DNA of 64,000 nucleotides, from positions 10,230,001-10,294,000 of the forward strand of contig NZ_CP108070.1 in the NCBI RefSeq assembly GCF_036178845.1. The letters are read 5' to 3'. The DNA is from Streptomyces sp. NBC_00271 (GTDB taxonomy: Bacteria; Actinomycetota; Actinomycetes; Streptomycetales; Streptomycetaceae). The notes under the pieces are model-generated. The model saw nothing but the letters and a program-made list of their open reading frames with translations. It was not told where the DNA came from and did not search any database. The stretch's first letter is position 1. The number at the start of each line of letters is the position of its first letter. A program made the translations under genes and the position numbers. Below are positions 39,395-47,622 of the stretch, piece after piece.

Positions 39395-42220
39395 TCAGGC
39401 CAGCTGTCGTCGCACCAGCTCGTGCAGCCGCCCGCCCGTGTCCGCGAGCAGATGCGCGGGTGGGCCCTGCTGGGCGACCCGGCCGTCCTCCATCACGATG
39501 ACACGGTCCGCGTCCAGCACCGTGGACAGCCGGTGCGCGATCACGATCCGGGTGGCGTTGAGCGCCCGGGTGCTCTCGATGACCGTGCGCTGGGTCTCGT
39601 TGTCGAGCGCGCTGGTCGCCTCGTCGAAGAAGAGGATGCGCGGCCGGCGGATCAGCGCCTGGGCGATCATCAGGCGCTGCCGCTGGCCGCCGGAGATCGC
39701 CCCGCTGCCGGAGACGATGGTGTGCAGCCCCATCGGCATCCGCCTGATGTCCTCGGCCAGGCCGGCCATCTCGGCCGCCGCCATCGCCTCCTCGGGCGTG
39801 TACGGCTCGGTGCCGCAGATGCAGTCCAGGATCGAGCCGGTGAACGGCTGGGCGTGCTGGAGCACCACACCGCACTGACGGCGTACGGCGGACTGGTCGA
39901 GCGCCCCCAGATCCTGTCCGTCGTAGAGCACACTGCCCGAGACCGGCTTGTCGAAGCCGATCAGCAGCCGCAGCAGCGTGGACTTTCCGCAGCCGCTGGG
40001 GCCGACGATCGCCACGAACTCGCCGGGCTTGATGTCGAACGACACGTCGTCCAGGACCAGCGGGCCGTCGTCGGCGTACCGGAAGGACAGCCGCCGGGCT
40101 TCGATGGCACCGGACAGCACCCCGGGGCGGGTGCTCGCCACCCGCACCTCCGGCGTGGCGTCGAGCACCGGCTTGATCTCCTCGAACATCGGCAGCGCGG
40201 CCGCCGCCGACACGAACGCGCCCGTCACCTGGGTGACCGAGGTCAGCAGCATCGTCATCGACGTGCTGAAGGTCAGGAAGTCGGCGGCCGACAGCGAGCC
40301 GCGCGCCGGACCCGCGAGCAGCATGAACATCAGCAGCGAGCACAGCGGCAGGTACACCGCGCCCATCACCGTCGTGAGGTTCTTGATGCGGCCGACCTTC
40401 TGCTGGAGCTCACGGCTGCGCGCGAACTCGCCCGCCCAGGCGGCGTACGCGTAGTTCTCGGCCGCCGCGACCCGCAGCTTGGGCAGGCCGCGCAGGGTCT
40501 GGAACGCCTGGTTGTTCAGCTTGTTGCTGAGCACGACCAGGCGGCGTTGCCAGCGCACCTGCCACAGTCCGAGCCCGAGGAACGCGGCCGCGATGACGAC
40601 GAGCATGCCGATCGCGGCGAGCGCCATGGGCACGCTGTACCAAAGGAGCAGCCCCAGGTTCATCGCGCCGACCGTGCCCGCCTGTGCGAGCGTCGGTCCG
40701 ACGCCCGCGAGGAGGCGGCGGATCGCGCTGATACCCATGGCGGCGCTGGCCAGCTCACCGGTCGAGCGGGACGTGAAGAACTTCGTCGGCAGCCTCAGCA
40801 GCCGGTCCCACACGGCCGGTTGGAGCGTCGCCTCGATCCGCCCCTCCATCCGCAGCATCGTGAGGTTCTGGAGCAGCATGAACGCGGCCGACACGATGCT
40901 GGTGACCATGATGGCCAGACAGACCTGCACGATCAGGCCGTGCTGGGCCTTGGGCACGTACTCGCCGAGCACCTGGCCGGTGGCGATCGGCACCAGCGCG
41001 CCGATCGCGACGGTGACGAGACCGCTGATCGCGAGGTTGCGCAGGTCGCCGCCGGTGCCCTGGAGGCAGAAACGCAGCAGCCGCAGCGGGCTCAGCTTCC
41101 GCTCGGGCAGCGGACGGTAGAACATCACGGCCCGCGCCTCGAACTCCGGCGCGTTGGCCTTCTCGATGGGGGTCTCCCGCCCCGAAGACGGCTGTACGGC
41201 CACGTATCCGCCGCGCCGCCACAACAGCGCGACCGGCGAGCCCGACACGGCACGGTGGCCCACCAGCGGGCCGATGTTGTCGCGCCACCAGCGCCCGTCG
41301 AGGCGTACGGCACGGGTGCGGACGCGCGAGGCGAGCGCGATCCGTTCCACCGGATCGAGCCGGTCGCTCTCCGTGCCGCTCTGCGCGGACTCGGCGAGAG
41401 TGATCCCGGACGCGCGGGCGACCAGCTTGCAGGCCGCGTACGTGGCGTCCGCGTCGGCCGCCGTCGGGCGCTTGGACGACTTGCCGATCGACGCCAGCAG
41501 GGTGCGGTCGGCCTGGGCGCGGACGGCCTCGCCCGCCTTGATGCCCGCCGCCGTACGGTCCTCGTGGCTGGCCTCCAACTGCTCGATCCAGCGGTCGAGC
41601 GTGGACAGCAGTCGATACTGCTGGTCGACCATGCCCTGCCAGACACCGGAGTCCATCAGCAGATCGGCCGCCGCCTCGGCGCCGTACAGGGAGCCGTACT
41701 GGACACTCCCGGGCGGCACCTGCATCCAGAAGACGTCGTCATCGGTCAGCGCGGCGGCGTTCTCCGTGGCCATCGGCGCCTGGAAGAGAATGGACAGGCT
41801 GCGGCCGACGCCGAGGGCGAGGGCGTACTCCAGCGGGCTCGACGTCGGCGGTACGTACTGGGGGTTGCCGTAGTCGTCGTAGGACCAGGTCTGGGTGTCC
41901 ACCTGCTGGTACAGCTCGCGCAGCACGATCCGGCGCACCACGCAGTCCCGCAACGGCCGCCCCACGAGGGTGTGTTGCGGGCCGGCGACGGGGCCGAGCA
42001 GCAGGGAGCCCGCTTCGAGGCGGCCGAGGTGGTGCCAGTGGCCCTGCTGGACGGCGTCGACCGCGAACAGGTCCATGGCGCCCGCCGCCACCAGCCAGAG
42101 GACCTGCGGGCCTTCCAGATCGAGGCGGCCGAGGCCGGAGCAGTCGACCGGCGTTCCCATGCCGCCGAGCGCGCCGAGGACGAGGTCTCCCTCGCGTGCG
42201 CCCTCGTGAACCGTGGTCAT
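39395..42220 (-). CDS. NHLM/NHLP-type peptide export ABC transporter, permease/ATPase subunit
   Basis: A 941-residue half-transporter. A long N-terminal soluble region of about 390 residues (with an early cyclic-nucleotide-binding-like/cupin part) is followed by six helices (about 390-690) and an ATPase. Walker A is GPSGCGKST near 738, the signature AISGGQRQRL and Walker B ILFFDEATSALD. The missing C39 peptidase and long N-terminus match the second ABC subunit of NHLM bacteriocin systems. It is last of the four-gene operon, 1 base after the C39-ABC gene, and likely forms a heterodimer with it. Confidence 0.92.
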   Translation of the reverse strand: MTTVHEGAREGDLVLGALGGMGTPVDCSGLGRLDLEGPQVLWLVAAGAMDLFAVDAVQQGHWHHLGRLEAGSLLLGPVAGPQHTLVGRPLRDCVVRRIVLRELYQQVDTQTWSYDDYGNPQYVPPTSSPLEYALALGVGRSLSILFQAPMATENAAALTDDDVFWMQVPPGSVQYGSLYGAEAAADLLMDSGVWQGMVDQQYRLLSTLDRWIEQLEASHEDRTAAGIKAGEAVRAQADRTLLASIGKSSKRPTAADADATYAACKLVARASGITLAESAQSGTESDRLDPVERIALASRVRTRAVRLDGRWWRDNIGPLVGHRAVSGSPVALLWRRGGYVAVQPSSGRETPIEKANAPEFEARAVMFYRPLPERKLSPLRLLRFCLQGTGGDLRNLAISGLVTVAIGALVPIATGQVLGEYVPKAQHGLIVQVCLAIMVTSIVSAAFMLLQNLTMLRMEGRIEATLQPAVWDRLLRLPTKFFTSRSTGELASAAMGISAIRRLLAGVGPTLAQAGTVGAMNLGLLLWYSVPMALAAIGMLVVIAAAFLGLGLWQVRWQRRLVVLSNKLNNQAFQTLRGLPKLRVAAAENYAYAAWAGEFARSRELQQKVGRIKNLTTVMGAVYLPLCSLLMFMLLAGPARGSLSAADFLTFSTSMTMLLTSVTQVTGAFVSAAAALPMFEEIKPVLDATPEVRVASTRPGVLSGAIEARRLSFRYADDGPLVLDDVSFDIKPGEFVAIVGPSGCGKSTLLRLLIGFDKPVSGSVLYDGQDLGALDQSAVRRQCGVVLQHAQPFTGSILDCICGTEPYTPEEAMAAAEMAGLAEDIRRMPMGLHTIVSGSGAISGGQRQRLMIAQALIRRPRILFFDEATSALDNETQRTVIESTRALNATRIVIAHRLSTVLDADRVIVMEDGRVAQQGPPAHLLADTGGRLHELVRRQLA

Positions 42221-42221
42221 C

Positions 42222-44444
42222 TCATCGCTCCTTGACCAGCTCGGCGTACGGACCGCCGGCCGCGACCAGGGCGTCGTGCCGCCCGCGTTCCACGATCGTG
42301 CCGTGCTGCAGCACGACGATCTCGTCGCTGTCGCGCACGGTGCTGAGCCGGTGCGCGATCACCACACAGGCACAGCCGCGCTTGCGCAGGTTGTCGATGA
42401 CCGTCTGCTCGGTCTCGGCGTCCAGCGCGCTGGTCACCTCGTCGAGCACCAGGATGCTCGGCCGGCGCACCAACGCCCGTGCGATCTCCAGGCGTTGGCG
42501 CTGGCCACCGGAGAAGTTGCGGCCGTCCTGCTCGACCCGGCTGTGGATGCCACCGGGGCGGCGCGTGACCACGTCGTACAGCGCCGCGTCCTCCAACGCC
42601 GCGACCACGGCCTCGTCGGGAATGGACGGATCCCACAGGGCCACGTTGTCGCGGACCGTCCCCTCGAAGAGGAACACGTCCTGGTCGACGAAGGAGACCG
42701 AGGCGGCGAGCGCGCCGCGCGGGATGTCCTCCAGTCGCTGTCCGTCGATGCGGATCGTGCCCTCCCACGGGGAGTACAGGCCCGATATGAGCCTGGAGAC
42801 CGTGGACTTGCCGCTGCCCGAGCCGCCGACCAGGGCCACCTGCTGGCCCGGGCCGACCGTCAGGGAGAAGCCGGTGAGCAGGGGTTTGTCGAGCGGGCTG
42901 TAGCCGAACGTGATGTTCTCCAGCTCGACATGACCCTGGAGCCTGCGGGTGGACTCGCCGCTGCCGGAGCGGGCGTAGAGCGGGTCGGTCTGGAAGTTCT
43001 CGACGTCCTTGAGCCGGGCCACGTCGGCGGCGAAGTCCTGGATGCGGCCCGCGACGCCGTTGAGCCGGGTGAGGGGCGCGGTGAAGCGGGTGACCAGGGC
43101 CTGGAAGGCGACGAGCAGGCCGACGGAGATGTGCCCCTCGACCGCCCGCAGCCCGCCGATCCACAGGATCAGCGCGGAGTTGAGCGTCGCGAGCGTCGGT
43201 GCGACCACACCCAGCCAGGCGCTCGGCACCCCGAGGCGCTGCTGCTCCTCCAGGGTGGTCGCGTGCTGGCCCGCCCACTTGCGGAAGTAGCCGTCCTCCC
43301 CGCCGGTCGCCTTCATCGTTTCGATCAACTGGAGGCCGGTGTACGCGGTGTTGGTGAGGCGCGCGTTGTCGGCGCGCAGCTTCGCCGTACGGGTCGCGCG
43401 CAGCCGGATCACCACGCGCATCGCGATCACGTTGAGCAGCGCGACGCCGATGCCCACGGCCGTGAGCTGCGGGTCGTAGGTGTAGAGGAGCACCGCGTAC
43501 AGGACGACCACGATCGCGTCCACGCCGGCCGCCGCGAGGTCGCGGGCCAGGGTCTCGGCCACCGCGTCGTTCGACTGGAGCCGCTGCACCAGGTCGGCCG
43601 GGCTGCGCTGGGAGAAGAACGTGACGGGCAGCCGCAGCAGATGGCGCAGGAAGCGGGCGCTGGAGAGGGTGGAGGAGATGATCCGGCCGTGCAGCAGGTT
43701 CGCCTGCTGGAGCCAGGTCAGCACGACGGTCAGCGCCACACAGGCGCCCATCGACGTGAACAGCACGCCCAGCAGCGAGGTCCGGCCGCCGATCAGATAC
43801 GTGTCGATGTACGTCCGGCTCAACGCGGGGACCGCCGCGCCGACCGCGACCAGCAGCAGGCTCGCCAGCACGGCCGCGGGCATCGTGCCCGAGGTGCCGC
43901 GCAGCCGGGCCGGCATGGCACCCAGGACGCCCGGCTTGCGGCCGCCCTTGTGGAAGTCGGGCCCCGGCTCCATGACCAGCACCACACCCGTGAAGCTGGT
44001 GTCGAAGTCCTCCATGGGCACGAAACGGCGGCCCTTGCCGGGGTCGTTGATGTGCACGCCGCGCCGTCCGAAGCGGCGGCCCATGCCGTCGTAGACGACG
44101 TAGTGGTTGAACTCCCAGAACAGGATCGCGGGCGCCTTCACCTCGGCGAGCGCGGCCGTGTCCATCTGCATGCCCTTGGCCGTGAGGCCGTAACTGCGCG
44201 CCGCCTTGAGCAGGTTGCTGGCGCGCGAGCCGTCCCGGGAGACACCGCACGCGATGCGCAGCTCTTCGAGGGGGATGTGGCGGCCGTAGTGGCCGAGCAC
44301 CATGGCGAGGGAGGCGGCGCCGCACTCCACGGCCTCCATCTGGAGGACGGTGGGGGTGCGGACCGTCTTCCCCTTCGCCTTGGGGACCGTGCGCTTGGGC
44401 GGGGCGGTGCGGCGTCTGCTCCGGGTGTCTGGTGCGGTGGTCAC
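42222..44444 (-). CDS. NHLM/NHLP-type peptidase (C39)/permease/ATPase ABC transporter
   Basis: A 740-residue export protein that cleaves and exports double-glycine peptides. The C39 peptidase has Q35 and C41 (LQMEAVECGAAS), H114 (FNHYVVYDG) and D134 (HINDPGKG), all intact. A six-helix membrane domain follows, then the ATPase with Walker A GGSGSGKST near 539, signature FSGGQRQRLEIARAL and ILVLDEVTSALD. GTG 44444 overlaps the adaptor stop by four bases; the longer frame to 44546 runs into the adaptor gene and is rejected. Its substrate is presumably the precursor at 45343-45558. Confidence 0.94.
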   Translation of the reverse strand: MTTAPDTRSRRRTAPPKRTVPKAKGKTVRTPTVLQMEAVECGAASLAMVLGHYGRHIPLEELRIACGVSRDGSRASNLLKAARSYGLTAKGMQMDTAALAEVKAPAILFWEFNHYVVYDGMGRRFGRRGVHINDPGKGRRFVPMEDFDTSFTGVVLVMEPGPDFHKGGRKPGVLGAMPARLRGTSGTMPAAVLASLLLVAVGAAVPALSRTYIDTYLIGGRTSLLGVLFTSMGACVALTVVLTWLQQANLLHGRIISSTLSSARFLRHLLRLPVTFFSQRSPADLVQRLQSNDAVAETLARDLAAAGVDAIVVVLYAVLLYTYDPQLTAVGIGVALLNVIAMRVVIRLRATRTAKLRADNARLTNTAYTGLQLIETMKATGGEDGYFRKWAGQHATTLEEQQRLGVPSAWLGVVAPTLATLNSALILWIGGLRAVEGHISVGLLVAFQALVTRFTAPLTRLNGVAGRIQDFAADVARLKDVENFQTDPLYARSGSGESTRRLQGHVELENITFGYSPLDKPLLTGFSLTVGPGQQVALVGGSGSGKSTVSRLISGLYSPWEGTIRIDGQRLEDIPRGALAASVSFVDQDVFLFEGTVRDNVALWDPSIPDEAVVAALEDAALYDVVTRRPGGIHSRVEQDGRNFSGGQRQRLEIARALVRRPSILVLDEVTSALDAETEQTVIDNLRKRGCACVVIAHRLSTVRDSDEIVVLQHGTIVERGRHDALVAAGGPYAELVKER

Positions 44445-45250
44445 GGCAGGAGCCAATCGACGGGGCGCTGATCGGCCAGGCGGATCGAACCCGTGGCCAG
44501 GGTCATGGAGGTGAGTGCGAACGGCGGCCCGTCGGCCGAGGACCACTTCAGGCCGCTCTTCGTCGCGGTGGAGCGGTCGAGGCGGACCAGGACGGCCACC
44601 GGCCTGCCCTTCTTGGTGAACTGTTCGCCGAGTTGGCTGTCACCGAGGAAGGAGGAGATCTGCTGGGGGGTCTGCACGCTCCGGCCGACCGCCTTCACAT
44701 GGCCGCGCAGTACCCCGTACTGCTGGGTCGGCACCGACTGCACGGTGAGGTCGACCGCGGCGTTCGCGGGGATGGTGGCCGCGCTCTCGGCGGGGACGTA
44801 CACCGTCGCGTAGAGCGGGTCGTCGGCGTGGGCGACCTTCTCCACGGCGGCGACGTTCGCGCCGGTCGAGATGATCGCGCCGATGGTGGCGGCGAGCGCG
44901 GTGACGCGTCCCGCGGCGACCGTGCGGACGACGGTCGTACCGCCCTGGGCCGTACGGACCTTGAGCACCGGCGCGTTCGCGGGCAGCCGTTCGCCCTCCT
45001 GGGCGACGACCTCGGTGACCTGCCCCGCGACGGGGCTCTGCAGGATGTAACTGCCCTCGCCGTGGGTGAGGACGGCGGGCGCGCTCACGGTGGACGCCAC
45101 CGTGCCCGTCACGGCCCAGACGGACGCCGCCGCCATGACGACCACCGTCACGGACAGGGCGAGCCAGCCCTGGGGGCGGGCGAAGCGCACCGGAAGGTCG
45201 AGCTCTTCGGGCGACTGCAGCTTGGCGAGGGCCTGTTGGCGGAACTGCAC
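44441..45250 (-). CDS. HlyD-type membrane-fusion adaptor of the NHLM export system
   Basis: A 269-residue adaptor with one N-terminal membrane helix (WLALSVTVVVMAAASVWAV, about 29-47) and an external biotinyl-lipoyl-like domain (YILQSPVAGQVTEVVAQEGE, VRTVAAGRVTALAATIGAII). It begins 92 bases after the precursor gene and overlaps the C39-ABC gene by four bases. In NHLM systems this protein links the two ABC subunits; in a monoderm bacterium it probably acts at the outer face of the membrane. Confidence 0.9.
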   Translation of the reverse strand: MQFRQQALAKLQSPEELDLPVRFARPQGWLALSVTVVVMAAASVWAVTGTVASTVSAPAVLTHGEGSYILQSPVAGQVTEVVAQEGERLPANAPVLKVRTAQGGTTVVRTVAAGRVTALAATIGAIISTGANVAAVEKVAHADDPLYATVYVPAESAATIPANAAVDLTVQSVPTQQYGVLRGHVKAVGRSVQTPQQISSFLGDSQLGEQFTKKGRPVAVLVRLDRSTATKSGLKWSSADGPPFALTSMTLATGSIRLADQRPVDWLLP

Positions 45251-45292
45251 GGGACTTCCCTCACCTGTTCGAGAGGTTTACGGCATCCGAGA

Positions 45293-45323
45293 AGTCCCGG
45301 AACCGGGGAGTGGTTCCGGGACT
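45293..45323. terminator. 12-bp hairpin between precursor peptide gene and exporter genes
   Basis: AGTCCCGGAACC (45293-45304) and GGTTCCGGGACT (45312-45323) pair perfectly around a 7-base loop, 20 bases after the precursor stop. It lacks a clean T-run, so it is more likely an attenuator or 3' stabiliser that gives more precursor than exporter mRNA. Confidence 0.7.
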
Positions 45324-45342
45324 CAACGGCACTGAAACGCGA

Positions 45343-45558
45343 TCAGAGACCGGCGACCAGGCCCGTGACCGGGGCGGTGTTGAGGCCGGTGACACCCTCG
45401 ACGGTGCCGACGACCGTGTTGACCAGGCCGGAGACCGGGGCAACACCGTCGACCAGGCCGGCCACGGTGCCAACGGCGTTCAGCGACAGGCCGCCGGAGA
45501 CGTTGTCGAGGTCGGCGTCCGAGATCTCGGCGGTGGCAACCTGGGGGGTGGAGTTCAT
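45343..45558 (-). CDS. Double-glycine leader peptide precursor (putative bacteriocin/secreted peptide)
   Basis: A 71-residue precursor. The leader is 23 residues ending EISDADLDNVSGG, a canonical double-glycine site for C39 peptidases. The 48-residue core (24-71) has no Cys, Lys, Arg or His, two acids (D37, E54), 12 Val and 9 Gly. It is internally duplicated (GTVAG 30-34 and GTVEG 51-55; APVSGLV 40-46 and APVTGLV 62-68) and has GxxxG at 30/34/38, 51/55 and 66/70. ATG 45558 lies 9 bases after GAAGGGA. Similar actinobacterial peptides are often labelled type A2 lantipeptide, but lanthionine is impossible without Cys. Confidence 0.87.
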   Translation of the reverse strand: MNSTPQVATAEISDADLDNVSGGLSLNAVGTVAGLVDGVAPVSGLVNTVVGTVEGVTGLNTAPVTGLVAGL

Positions 45559-46227
45559 GAGGGAACTTCCCTTCGTATGGATATTCATAAGGGGGAGAGC
45601 GGCCCCCCTCTGGGGACAGATGACGGCCGCCACCGCGGGGGTGCGGCACCCGATTCCGGGCGCTGTGCGGCGCCCGTTCCCGGATGCCTGGCTGCGACCT
45701 CCGCGGTGCAACGGATCAAAGCACGCTCGTGGCACGCGCATCCAATCAACCGGGGCTCTCACCTGGGAACTTGAGCGCGGTCGGGGCCCAACCGTGCAGG
45801 TGTGCGCACGTCTCGGCAGTCAGTTCTTCACATGCTGCACGGCATTGTTCCGTCCCCGCGCTTGTCGCCCCGCGCCCGAAAGGGACAGTCCCACCGCAAT
45901 GGCGCGGAGGGGGGCGTGCGAGTGTGCAGATCCGCTGTCCACCGTGACGCGCCTGCGTATTCGATGTGCAGATTCCCTGAAGTAGGGATTCCGTTCCTGC
46001 CGGAAGACGGACCGTCACCGATCGGTAGCGGAGCGTGTCATATCGGCTGCTCACTCGGTGTAATGGCCCGATTGCCTGGTATTTCATGTGTTTGGCCGAG
46101 CCAACTCAGCTCCTTTCTAAACACAGTTGAACAGCCCGCGCGGCTCACGCGTATCAACAGGCATCCAGGCGCCCCCTAGTCAGCCGCCGGACGGTGGCCT
46201 CGACCCCGTCCCCAGGAGGTCAAAGAG
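45559..46227. other. Long divergent regulatory region between precursor peptide and S1 protease genes
   Basis: 669 bases with no convincing gene; two frames (45746-46087 minus, 45802-46179 plus) have atypical composition. It contains a direct repeat TGTGCAGATYCSCTG (45923-45937 and 45965-45979, 42 bases apart), TCCCT-GAAGT-AGGGA (45974-45988 area), a palindrome TTGGC-CGA-GCCAA (46092-46104) and GTGTTT/AAACAC arms (46088-46093, 46119-46124) near the protease. Multiple regulator sites are likely. No -35/-10 pair was assigned with confidence. Confidence 0.5.
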
Positions 46228-47622
46228 TTGAGTCACAAAAGGATTCCCAAGCGCAAGGCCGCCATCGCTGTCGGAAGCGTCGCGGCGCTCGGAGCGGCGG
46301 CTCTGCTGCTGCCCCACGCCAACGCCTCGCAGACCGACGCGAAGGACGCCACTCCCAAGACGCTGAAGTCCGCGGACGCCTCGAGCCTGGCCTCGCTCAT
46401 CGCCTCCCAGCTCGGTGACGCCTTCGGCGGCGCGTACTGGGACGCCTCGAAGCAGCAGGTCATCGTCAATATCGTTGGCAACAACAGCAATGTCGTCAAC
46501 ACCGTCGAGAAGGCCGGCGCTGTTCCCCGCAGCGTCAACAACAGCCTGTCCACGCTCAAGACGGCTGCCAAGACGCTGAAGTCCGACGCGACCATCCCCG
46601 GCACCGCCTGGTCGATCGACCCCAAGACGAACCAGGTCCAGGTCACCGCCGACAGCACCGTCACAGGTGCGAAGTGGGCCAAGCTGACGTCGACCGTCGA
46701 CTCGCTCGGTTCCGGCGTGGCCACGGTCAAGAAGTCCGCCGGTACGTTCAAGACGTTCGTGTCGGGCGGTGACGCGATCTTCGCCCAGACGGACGCCGGC
46801 GGCGTCCGCTGTTCCCTCGGCTTCAACGTCACAGCGAGCGACGGCGCCCCCGCCTTCCTGACCGCCGGGCACTGCGGTGTCGCGGCCAAGCAGTGGTCGG
46901 ACTCGCAGAACGGGCAGCCGATCGCGACCGTCGACCAGGCCACCTTCCCCGGTGCCGGCGACTTCTCCCTCGTGAAGTACGACGACCCCGCCACCCAGAC
47001 GGCGAGCGAGGTGAACGTCGGCAACGGGAAGACCGTCCAGATCACCCAGGCGGCGGACGCCACGGTCGGTCAGCAGGTCCTCCGCATGGGCAGCACCACC
47101 GGTCTGCACGACGGCTCGGTCACCGGTCTCGACGCCACGGTCAACTTCCAGAGTGAGACCGACCCCAACGGCGTCGACACCGTCACCGGTCTCATACAGA
47201 CCGACGTCTGCGCCGAGGCGGGCGACAGCGGCGGCTCGCTGTTCACCCAGGACGGCAGCGCGATCGGCCTGACCTCCGGCGGCAGCGGTGACTGCACCGT
47301 CGGCGGCGAGACCTTCTTCCAGCCCGTGACCGCCGCCCTCCAGGCGACCGGCGCGACGCTCGGCGCGGGTGACGCCGCGGGTGCCGGCGACGCGAGTGCC
47401 GCGGCGACCGACCCGGCGGCCACCGACCCGGCAGCCACCGACCCGGCCGCGACCGACCCCGCGGCCACCGATCCGGCGGCCACGGACCCGGCGGCGACCG
47501 ACCCCGCGGCCACGGACCCGGCGGCCAGTGACCCGGCTGCGGGCGACGAGTCCGGGACCGGCAGCGACGAGAACAGCACCGGTATGGACGCGGGCTCCGG
47601 CCTGGTGACCAGCACCCCGTGA
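46228..47622 (+). CDS. Secreted S1-family serine protease (streptogrisin / alpha-lytic type) with TDPAA-repeat tail
   Basis: A 464-residue preproprotease. A signal peptide (about 1-34), a pro-region of about 155 residues and a chymotrypsin-fold domain are visible. The catalytic His is in AFLTAGHCG, the Asp in GAGDFSLVKYDD and the Ser in CAEAGDSGGSLF. Two Cys pairs are as in streptogrisins. The domain is followed by nine TDPAA-like pentapeptides and an acidic Gly/Ser tail, a linker normally seen before a second domain, but none follows. TTG 46228 has AGGAGG upstream. It may be involved in peptide maturation next door, which is speculative. Confidence 0.92.
   Translation: MSHKRIPKRKAAIAVGSVAALGAAALLLPHANASQTDAKDATPKTLKSADASSLASLIASQLGDAFGGAYWDASKQQVIVNIVGNNSNVVNTVEKAGAVPRSVNNSLSTLKTAAKTLKSDATIPGTAWSIDPKTNQVQVTADSTVTGAKWAKLTSTVDSLGSGVATVKKSAGTFKTFVSGGDAIFAQTDAGGVRCSLGFNVTASDGAPAFLTAGHCGVAAKQWSDSQNGQPIATVDQATFPGAGDFSLVKYDDPATQTASEVNVGNGKTVQITQAADATVGQQVLRMGSTTGLHDGSVTGLDATVNFQSETDPNGVDTVTGLIQTDVCAEAGDSGGSLFTQDGSAIGLTSGGSGDCTVGGETFFQPVTAALQATGATLGAGDAAGAGDASAAATDPAATDPAATDPAATDPAATDPAATDPAATDPAATDPAASDPAAGDESGTGSDENSTGMDAGSGLVTSTP
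47401..47535 (+). repeat. 15-bp tandem repeat encoding (A)TDPA units
   Basis: Nine contiguous 15-bp units of the form GCGGCCACCGACCCG, with silent changes, encode AATDP eight times and AASDP once. The frame is preserved, so copy number can change without frameshift. Confidence 0.9.

Follow-up and report, generated by a model that had tools for sequence, protein, structure and literature searches.

A probable Streptomyces-wide C39 exporter for unmodified peptides with few basic residues, in part one regulon

The pneumococcal C39 exporters BlpAB and ComAB serve more than one double-glycine (GG) peptide, encoded at different loci, and in the prochlorosins many precursors with a conserved leader and diverse cores are handled by common machinery. 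At the hyphal surface of Streptomyces, SapB and the chaplins act as secreted hydrophobic morphogenetic peptides, the chaplins taking the Sec route. The present analysis concerns an operon of one precursor peptide gene and a C39-type exporter in Streptomyces sp. NBC_00271, located in a 64,000-nucleotide stretch of its genome (contig NZ_CP108070.1, positions 10,230,001 to 10,294,000; this whole stretch is referred to as the window), and compares it with its relatives across the genus. The comparison points to a Streptomyces-wide C39 exporter whose substrates would be unmodified peptides with few basic residues, and which probably forms, in part, a single regulon with them.

The operon itself is already in print, as is the comment that its workings cannot be quite those of a lantibiotic, to judge from the excerpts of two papers on S. 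coelicolor (PMC6629963, PMC5733086). These excerpts describe SCO0753-0756 by the same gene order, a short Cys-free hydrophobic precursor, an HlyD homologue, two ATP-binding cassette (ABC) genes and presence in many Streptomyces, and by this description, rather than by sequence, the window operon appears orthologous to SCO0753-SCO0756. According to the PMC6629963 excerpt, in which the missing Cys and the conserved gene order are already remarked upon, SCO0753 is the most overexpressed gene (log2 6.3) in dispersed S. coelicolor with an activating SCO5282 allele, the exporter genes rise by log2 4.25-4.4 in that strain, and SCO0753-0756 is almost silent in the null mutant. The SCO5282/5283 two-component system controls the operon in S. 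coelicolor and also affects hyphal clumping (PMC6629963). In the PMC5733086 excerpt, SCO0753 is among the bacteriocin-cluster genes whose levels go up in an aor1 mutant. Both accounts, as excerpted, treat the genes as those of a single lantibiotic-like peptide and its exporter, and neither mentions leader peptides elsewhere, an operator or a 5' untranslated region (UTR).

In the window, coordinates and profile matches bear out the gene order given in an initial annotation of the sequence, namely precursor, HlyD-like adaptor, C39-ABC transporter (ABC1) and second ABC transporter (ABC2):
45346-45558, minus strand: precursor of 71 amino acids, ATG at 45558, with leader MNSTPQVATAEISDADLDNVSGG and a 48-residue Cys-free core
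45293-45323, minus strand: perfect 12-bp hairpin between the precursor and adaptor genes, read from the sequence
44441-45250, minus strand: HlyD-like adaptor, short form, 269 amino acids, GTG start; TIGR03794 at 143.0 bits; PF13437
42222-44444, minus strand: C39 peptidase-ABC transporter, 740 amino acids, GTG start; TIGR03796; PF03412
39395-42220, minus strand: second NHLM-type ABC transporter, 941 amino acids; TIGR03797; PF00005 and PF00664, without a C39 match

Both transporters pass the cut-offs of their profiles (1021.6 against 853.3 bits for TIGR03796, 897.2 against 709.4 bits for TIGR03797), and the adaptor stays below its own (143.0 against 156.2 bits), its best stretch covering model positions 245-417 of 421. 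The C39-ABC protein, whose GTG start overlaps the stop of the HlyD-like gene, matches the solved exporters 4ry2 and ComA over almost its whole length at the level of sequence. Its C39 domain (PF03412, 4.9e-36; the single match in the 12.3-Mb genome) has the catalytic residues C41, H114 and D134 in place by motif (740-residue numbering), and the precursor has a GG site before its core, both as initially annotated. The operon holds a short GG leader and a C39 exporter, as for an unmodified class II bacteriocin. Of 133 distinct stretches of 40-400 nt that separate precursor from adaptor gene, 115 contain a perfect stem of 7 bp or longer, compared with 12% of mononucleotide shuffles; the hairpin is perhaps a processing site, or a partial terminator through which the precursor would be made in excess of the exporter.

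This cassette is conserved as a unit. Sixty Streptomyces loci of up to 20 kb were fetched and one (L069, no ABC1) was dropped; adaptor and second ABC transporter are present in 59/59 ABC1-containing loci, and so is a precursor, in 56 by tblastn and in three, diverged but in the same place, by reading of open reading frames. The initial annotation had suggested a genome survey of orthologous precursors; here each of the 59 loci has the full cassette, and no enzyme family recurs in the 27 whose flanks differ. The loci were divided by ABC1 identity and flanks, not by a tree, into clade I (ABC1 at ~90% identity; shared flanks with a divergent S1 protease and a SpoIIE-type phosphatase) and clade II (~85% identity; other flanks). 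With genes called by a rule on GC content at third codon positions and a minimum of 80 amino acids, the families found in at least five of the 27 clade II loci are the cassette genes and a LysR-like gene (five loci; LysR assigned by eye). Among genes of at least 80 amino acids, no LanM, YcaO or other enzyme of ribosomally synthesized and post-translationally modified peptides (RiPPs) is a recurring neighbour of related cassettes, and no immunity-like gene recurs in the 27 clade II loci. The claim that no modification enzyme lies beside the cassette is strengthened by the loci with differing flanks, and a conserved tailoring gene, when looked for in related cassettes, was not found travelling with them.

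The same approach did detect tailoring genes at other NHLM exporters, which served as a positive control. Specifically, 18 further NHLM loci comprised seven of the present type and 11 of other types, and the six of these 11 that were examined (actinobacterial loci, ABC1 40-51% identical) all carry YcaO or SagB/ThcOx-type genes, with YcaO beside the exporter in L203, L204, L206, L207 and L212 and a SagB/ThcOx-type oxidase in L203 and L208. Long-leader precursors occur in four of the six, and those of L203, L204 and L212 include some with core Cys; L203 and L204 combine YcaO genes with very Cys-rich cores, such as CCCCPCCCCT. In 30 cassette-bearing genomes, a LanM-type DUF4135 gene is present anywhere in 14 and YcaO in 19, and five genomes have neither (G009, G191, G111, G118 and G079, the last 78% complete), which means that the system cannot depend on either enzyme in trans. 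YcaO has no match in the window's genome, which does carry one LanM-type gene, far from the operon. A lanthipeptide or azole product was rejected on the missing core Cys and the patchy LanM and YcaO.

The precursor is more than a chance reading frame, because homologues occur in 190 of 295 Streptomyces genomes, the closest 29 at 87-93% identity across all 71 residues. An alternative in-frame ATG ten codons upstream would yield 81 amino acids; the 71-residue start was chosen, as a matter of judgement, because conservation begins there. The core (LSLNAV...VAGL, residues 24-71) spans 48 amino acids without Cys, as initially annotated, and without Lys, Arg or aromatic residues, and has a computed linear monoisotopic mass of 4427.45 Da. 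Operon precursors read from the fetched loci and the window number 141, 122 of them distinct; Cys, Lys, Trp and Tyr are absent from all of their cores, 78% of the core residues are Val, Gly, Thr, Leu or Ala, and the leader measures 20-23 residues in the 122. Net side-chain charge of the operon (PRE1) core, counting Lys, Arg, Asp and Glu, is -1 to -3 in every one of the 122. Pooled pairwise estimates of the ratio of nonsynonymous to synonymous substitution rates (dN/dS), obtained under strong codon bias, are lower for the leader (0.27) than for the core (0.50, with 0.63 in its N-terminal and 0.35 in its C-terminal half) across 99 distinct clade I precursor genes, which points to a PRE1 core that is constrained, less so than the leader.

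NCBIfam hits to the precursor in the window, taken up to an E-value of 1, include no long nitrile-hydratase-alpha- or Nif11-like leader, and a weak hit to FapA (E 0.003; 17.8 against 100 bits) was put down to composition. The hydrophobic moment is highest near 110 degrees (z 3.5 in the window; mean z 3.25 for 25 sampled cores; 11 angles tried) and not at 160-180 degrees, on which ground beta-strand or amyloid character was set aside. Periodicity over the whole length of the core is not significant, with 105 of 500 shuffles equally high.

The leader reaches well beyond the operon. A search with a 24-residue leader profile across 291 Streptomyces genomes found leader genes in 214. The exporter (ABC1 over cut-off) is likewise present in 214 of the 291, and both occur together in 210. 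The four genomes with ABC1 over threshold and no leader (G028, G038, G120, G188) have scores in the range of YcaO-type loci. Two to five leader genes are present in 96 of the 214 leader-bearing genomes, their position apart from the exporter having been checked for those whose loci were fetched. The 30 exporter-bearing genomes sampled for leader genes were mostly picked for two precursor-homologue matches, and the 291-genome count is the unbiased one.

Upstream of the operon lies an extended conserved control region:
45559-45720, minus strand: conserved 5'UTR region that starts with the TTTGATC block and is predicted to form two hairpins ahead of the ribosome-binding site; from a 60-sequence alignment
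45824-45832, minus strand: conserved TGTGAAGAA, 112 bp upstream of TTTGATC
45923-45930, minus strand: TCTGCACA again, as a second copy 42 bp away from the first
45965-45972, minus strand: distant operator-like TCTGCACA, first copy, 252 bp upstream of TTTGATC

The spacings in this region are tightly kept. In loci with both elements, TGTGAAGAA stands 112 bp from TTTGATC in 87, 113 bp in 14 and 111 bp in one; TCTGCACA is present in 108/108 clade I and 21/33 other operon upstream regions, its first copy is 250-254 bp away from TTTGATC in 110 loci, and where there are two copies the second lies 42 bp downstream in 76 of 77. Support for the two-hairpin structure of the 5'UTR is partial. Across 60 sequences, pairing extends to 93.1% of cells (shuffles: 90.9%). 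The covariation score of 0.158 compares with 0.120 in shuffles, was reached in 0/500 of them and falls to about half or less when the structure is slid, in a test that leans towards this structure, hand-defined from the very sequences tested. RNAalifold alone gives a weak -6.44 kcal/mol, and no Rfam family exceeds its threshold, the only match being mraW at 20.4 bits against a threshold of 50. In the predicted fold of five clade II loci (L046, L048, L050, L055, L060), the 5' end of the UTR, CCTTCGC, can pair with the ribosome-binding site GCGAAGG, an arrangement that would allow translational control.

Searching the window's genome with the operator region returned the operon at 0 mismatches, one site at one mismatch and weaker ones. 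The 1-mismatch site precedes a gene, here termed PRE2 (G000:C1:8699218-8699424), which lies 1.58 Mb from the operon with no exporter alongside, and has an operon-type promoter and 5'UTR. It encodes MNSAPQVQTLEISDIELDTVSGG followed by a 46-residue core unrelated to that of the operon. A 2-mismatch match (G000:C1:1310953) falls within a called gene and was dropped as chance, and two 3-mismatch matches inspected in this genome show no leader gene. Full-length relatives of PRE2, mostly annotated as hypothetical protein, occur in 33/291 Streptomyces genomes (E up to 3.1e-9), and the exporter is present in 33/33.

More broadly, fetched loci yielded 66 distinct scattered peptides, after two operon copies (L310, L312) had been removed from 68; two loci, L328 and L229, represent the same gene, the window genome's PRE2, and L243 and L250 hold no peptide by the pattern used. 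The scattered cores have 42-57 residues, are rich in Ala, Gly, Val and Leu with 0.8% Lys and 0.2% Arg, and form 27 groups when compared by a crude string measure. The pair of TCTGCACA and, within 150-300 bp, TTTGAT precedes 33 of the 66 (22/28 of PRE2 type and 11/38 others) and appears in 0/1360 mononucleotide shuffles; its spacings cluster at 216-221 bp (15) and 247-251 bp (15), a difference of roughly three turns of the helix. A covariance model of the operon UTR matches 38 of 70 loci, every time at a peptide start. These comprise 30/30 loci of PRE2 type and 5/37 others, along with two copies of the operon and a duplicate of PRE2 from the window's genome. Applied to 25 whole genomes, in a search that scores pre-selected candidates only and whose operon hits include some sequences used to build the model, it gave 28 matches, all of them leader genes (20 operons and eight outside), with no match in five exporter-less genomes. 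The leader thus identifies the family as a whole, and promoter and UTR single out mainly the operon and PRE2. No published account of the scattered leader peptides was found in the part of the open-licence PubMed Central literature consulted.

Near the scattered peptides of L289-L327, 120 genes include no tailoring enzyme in their 25 most frequent Pfam families (92 further families lie beyond these), and ten large genes checked singly include none either; the C39 and ABC matches seen there belong to the operon copies L310 and L312. In sets of loci related to one another, the genes that recur beside the peptides encode CNNM/CBS transporters, LacI regulators and TadE-like pilus components. L292, L293, L316, L322, L323 and L325 hold related leader peptides, several of these loci with TadE-like pilus genes nearby, a neighbourhood that may hint at a surface role. 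Two further peptides stand out by their cores: that of L306 (near 3000), whose locus includes an E1-E2 ATPase gene, contains a GEHHGHHGHHGHHG stretch, possibly metal-binding, and that of L309 (near 2970) contains a run of GLP repeats.

Taken together, the data make it probable, as our preferred model, that a C39-type machine cleaves off a leader of 20-23 residues after GG and then exports the core without enzymatic tailoring. In many strains the exporter would serve both its own core, rich in Val, Gly, Thr and Leu, and further peptides encoded elsewhere, all of them carrying the common leader. The operon promoter (TCTGCACA ~217 or 250 bp upstream of TTTGAT) and 5'UTR are carried nearly always by the PRE2 family and in a minority of cases by the other scattered peptides, and the S. 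coelicolor operon answers, by the published account, to SCO5282/5283. Cassette content, the co-occurrence of leader and exporter, the partly shared promoter and UTR and the want of a recurring tailoring gene come directly from genome comparison; cleavage at GG, export in trans, an unmodified product and its role we infer from these associations. The initial annotation is thereby upheld in part: its proposal of an unmodified class of secreted peptide is strengthened, and its picture of a minimal operon for one peptide gives way, since the exporter co-occurs with leader-bearing peptides from other loci, some of which share the operon promoter and 5'UTR.

Several observations weigh against this model. 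Outside PRE2, the promoter pair is missing in 27/38 scattered peptides and the UTR match in 32/37 loci, and the UTR model recovers 8/32 non-operon leader genes in 20 exporter-bearing genomes, so that promoter and UTR are common to a minority outside PRE2. Four genomes carry a leader and no over-threshold ABC1 (G001, G119, G180, G279), although G001 is 79% complete and the other three have ABC1 matches of 1e-156 to 1e-184, which are perhaps partial. On the side of modification, related NHLM loci do carry modification genes, 13 of the 66 scattered precursors have one Cys (none has more), a lone enzyme beyond the 25 most frequent families could hide near the scattered peptides, and the survey in trans covered LanM and YcaO. 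AlphaFold confidence is low for PRE1 (predicted local distance difference test 57.9, predicted template modelling score 0.20) and PRE2 (51.4 and 0.20), and no fold is claimed because of this low confidence and the modest amphipathic signal. Finally, dN/dS in 20 PRE2 sequences, likewise a pooled pairwise estimate under strong codon bias, is 1.39 for the core against 0.55 for the leader, a pattern more readily explained by antagonism or weak constraint than by a conserved structural role.

The most probable of the alternatives, though rather unlikely, is that the peptides are bacteriocins. On this view PRE1 would be common to the whole genus, and the scattered peptides would be toxins of individual strains, released through one exporter as in BlpAB/ComAB. 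The C39 exporter with its GG leader, the fast-evolving PRE2 core and the patchy distribution of the scattered peptides over 27 crudely defined groups all agree with it. Set against this are the negative, Lys-free PRE1 cores, the scarcity of Lys and Arg in the scattered ones, the lack of an immunity-like gene recurring with the cassette among genes of at least 80 amino acids, and purifying selection on the PRE1 core. A further, distinctly less probable alternative takes the peptides as extracellular signals sensed by SCO5282/5283 or another two-component system. GG peptides are pheromones elsewhere (excerpts of PMC7018657 and PMC7595303) and the operon is under two-component control (PMC6629963), but besides the SpoIIE-type phosphatase of clade I and the LysR-like gene (6/76 loci) no recurring regulator was noticed among neighbours that are not all annotated, and, as a matter of general knowledge, hydrophobic 48-residue cores, several per genome, would be unusual pheromones. 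Least probable of all is a RiPP modified by an enzyme encoded elsewhere, for which the modification genes adjoining related NHLM exporters and the NCBI name 'type A2 lantipeptide' on many relatives can be cited, and against which stand 122/122 operon cores without Cys, the patchy LanM and YcaO and the lack of a YcaO match in the window's genome.

As to function within the preferred model, these hydrophobic, non-cationic peptides perhaps act at the hyphal surface, in dispersal or clumping, a suggestion we hold at somewhat less than even probability. The published link to hyphal dispersal and the character of the cores favour it, the fast-evolving PRE2 core and the patchy repertoire favour antagonism, and the data do not decide. 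More tentative still is a broader picture of a genus-wide system in which one exporter and one conserved peptide are joined by changing 'plug-in' peptides recognized by their 24-residue leader, part of them co-expressed through the distant operator and structured 5'UTR, and jointly building or remodelling the hyphal surface or acting between strains.

If this picture is right, a new peptide gene would join the system by gaining the leader and, in some families, the promoter module too. A system found in 210/291 sampled Streptomyces carries a lantibiotic annotation despite the missing Cys and LanM, and such peptides have so far been filed as lantibiotics or overlooked. A core without Lys, Arg or aromatic residues, as in the window, would be missed by tryptic proteomics and ultraviolet detection, a blind spot that may explain why no report of the product was found. 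In turn, the leader provides a ready search key for a strain's exported peptide repertoire, and the published link to a pellet-controlling two-component system makes control of hyphal clumping in liquid culture genetically testable.

One conserved neighbour stands outside the cassette:
46228-47622, plus strand: divergent secreted S1 protease (PF02983, PF00089), neighbour in clade I
This trypsin-like enzyme with an alpha-lytic-type prodomain is a conserved neighbour in clade I only, and was rejected as part of the system on the ground that clade II cassettes lack it alongside (two have a match ~7 kb off).

Among known systems, the NHLM/NHLP export systems (TIGR03794/TIGR03796/TIGR03797) share with the window both ABC transporters over cut-offs and the order adaptor-ABC1-ABC2, and differ in that the window system has a short leader, no tailoring enzyme found and an adaptor below cut-off. 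BlpAB/ComAB belong to another exporter subfamily, in streptococci, with bacteriocins and pheromones as substrates, and we know of no structured 5'UTR shared by their peptides. To our knowledge, neither these exporters nor the prochlorosins pair this exporter type with unmodified substrates. The prochlorosins of picocyanobacteria are, in the excerpt of PMC10783134, lanthipeptides of the Nif11 family made by ProcM, whereas no LanM goes with the window cassette and the operon peptide is without core Cys. SapB is lantibiotic-like and needs Cys (PMC6629963, as excerpted), unlike the operon peptide, yet SapB and the chaplins have a suggested role similar to that proposed here for the exported peptides. 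In its workings, the system appears, by analogy and from the published excerpts, to stand closest to the pneumococcal BlpAB/ComAB exporters and the prochlorosins.

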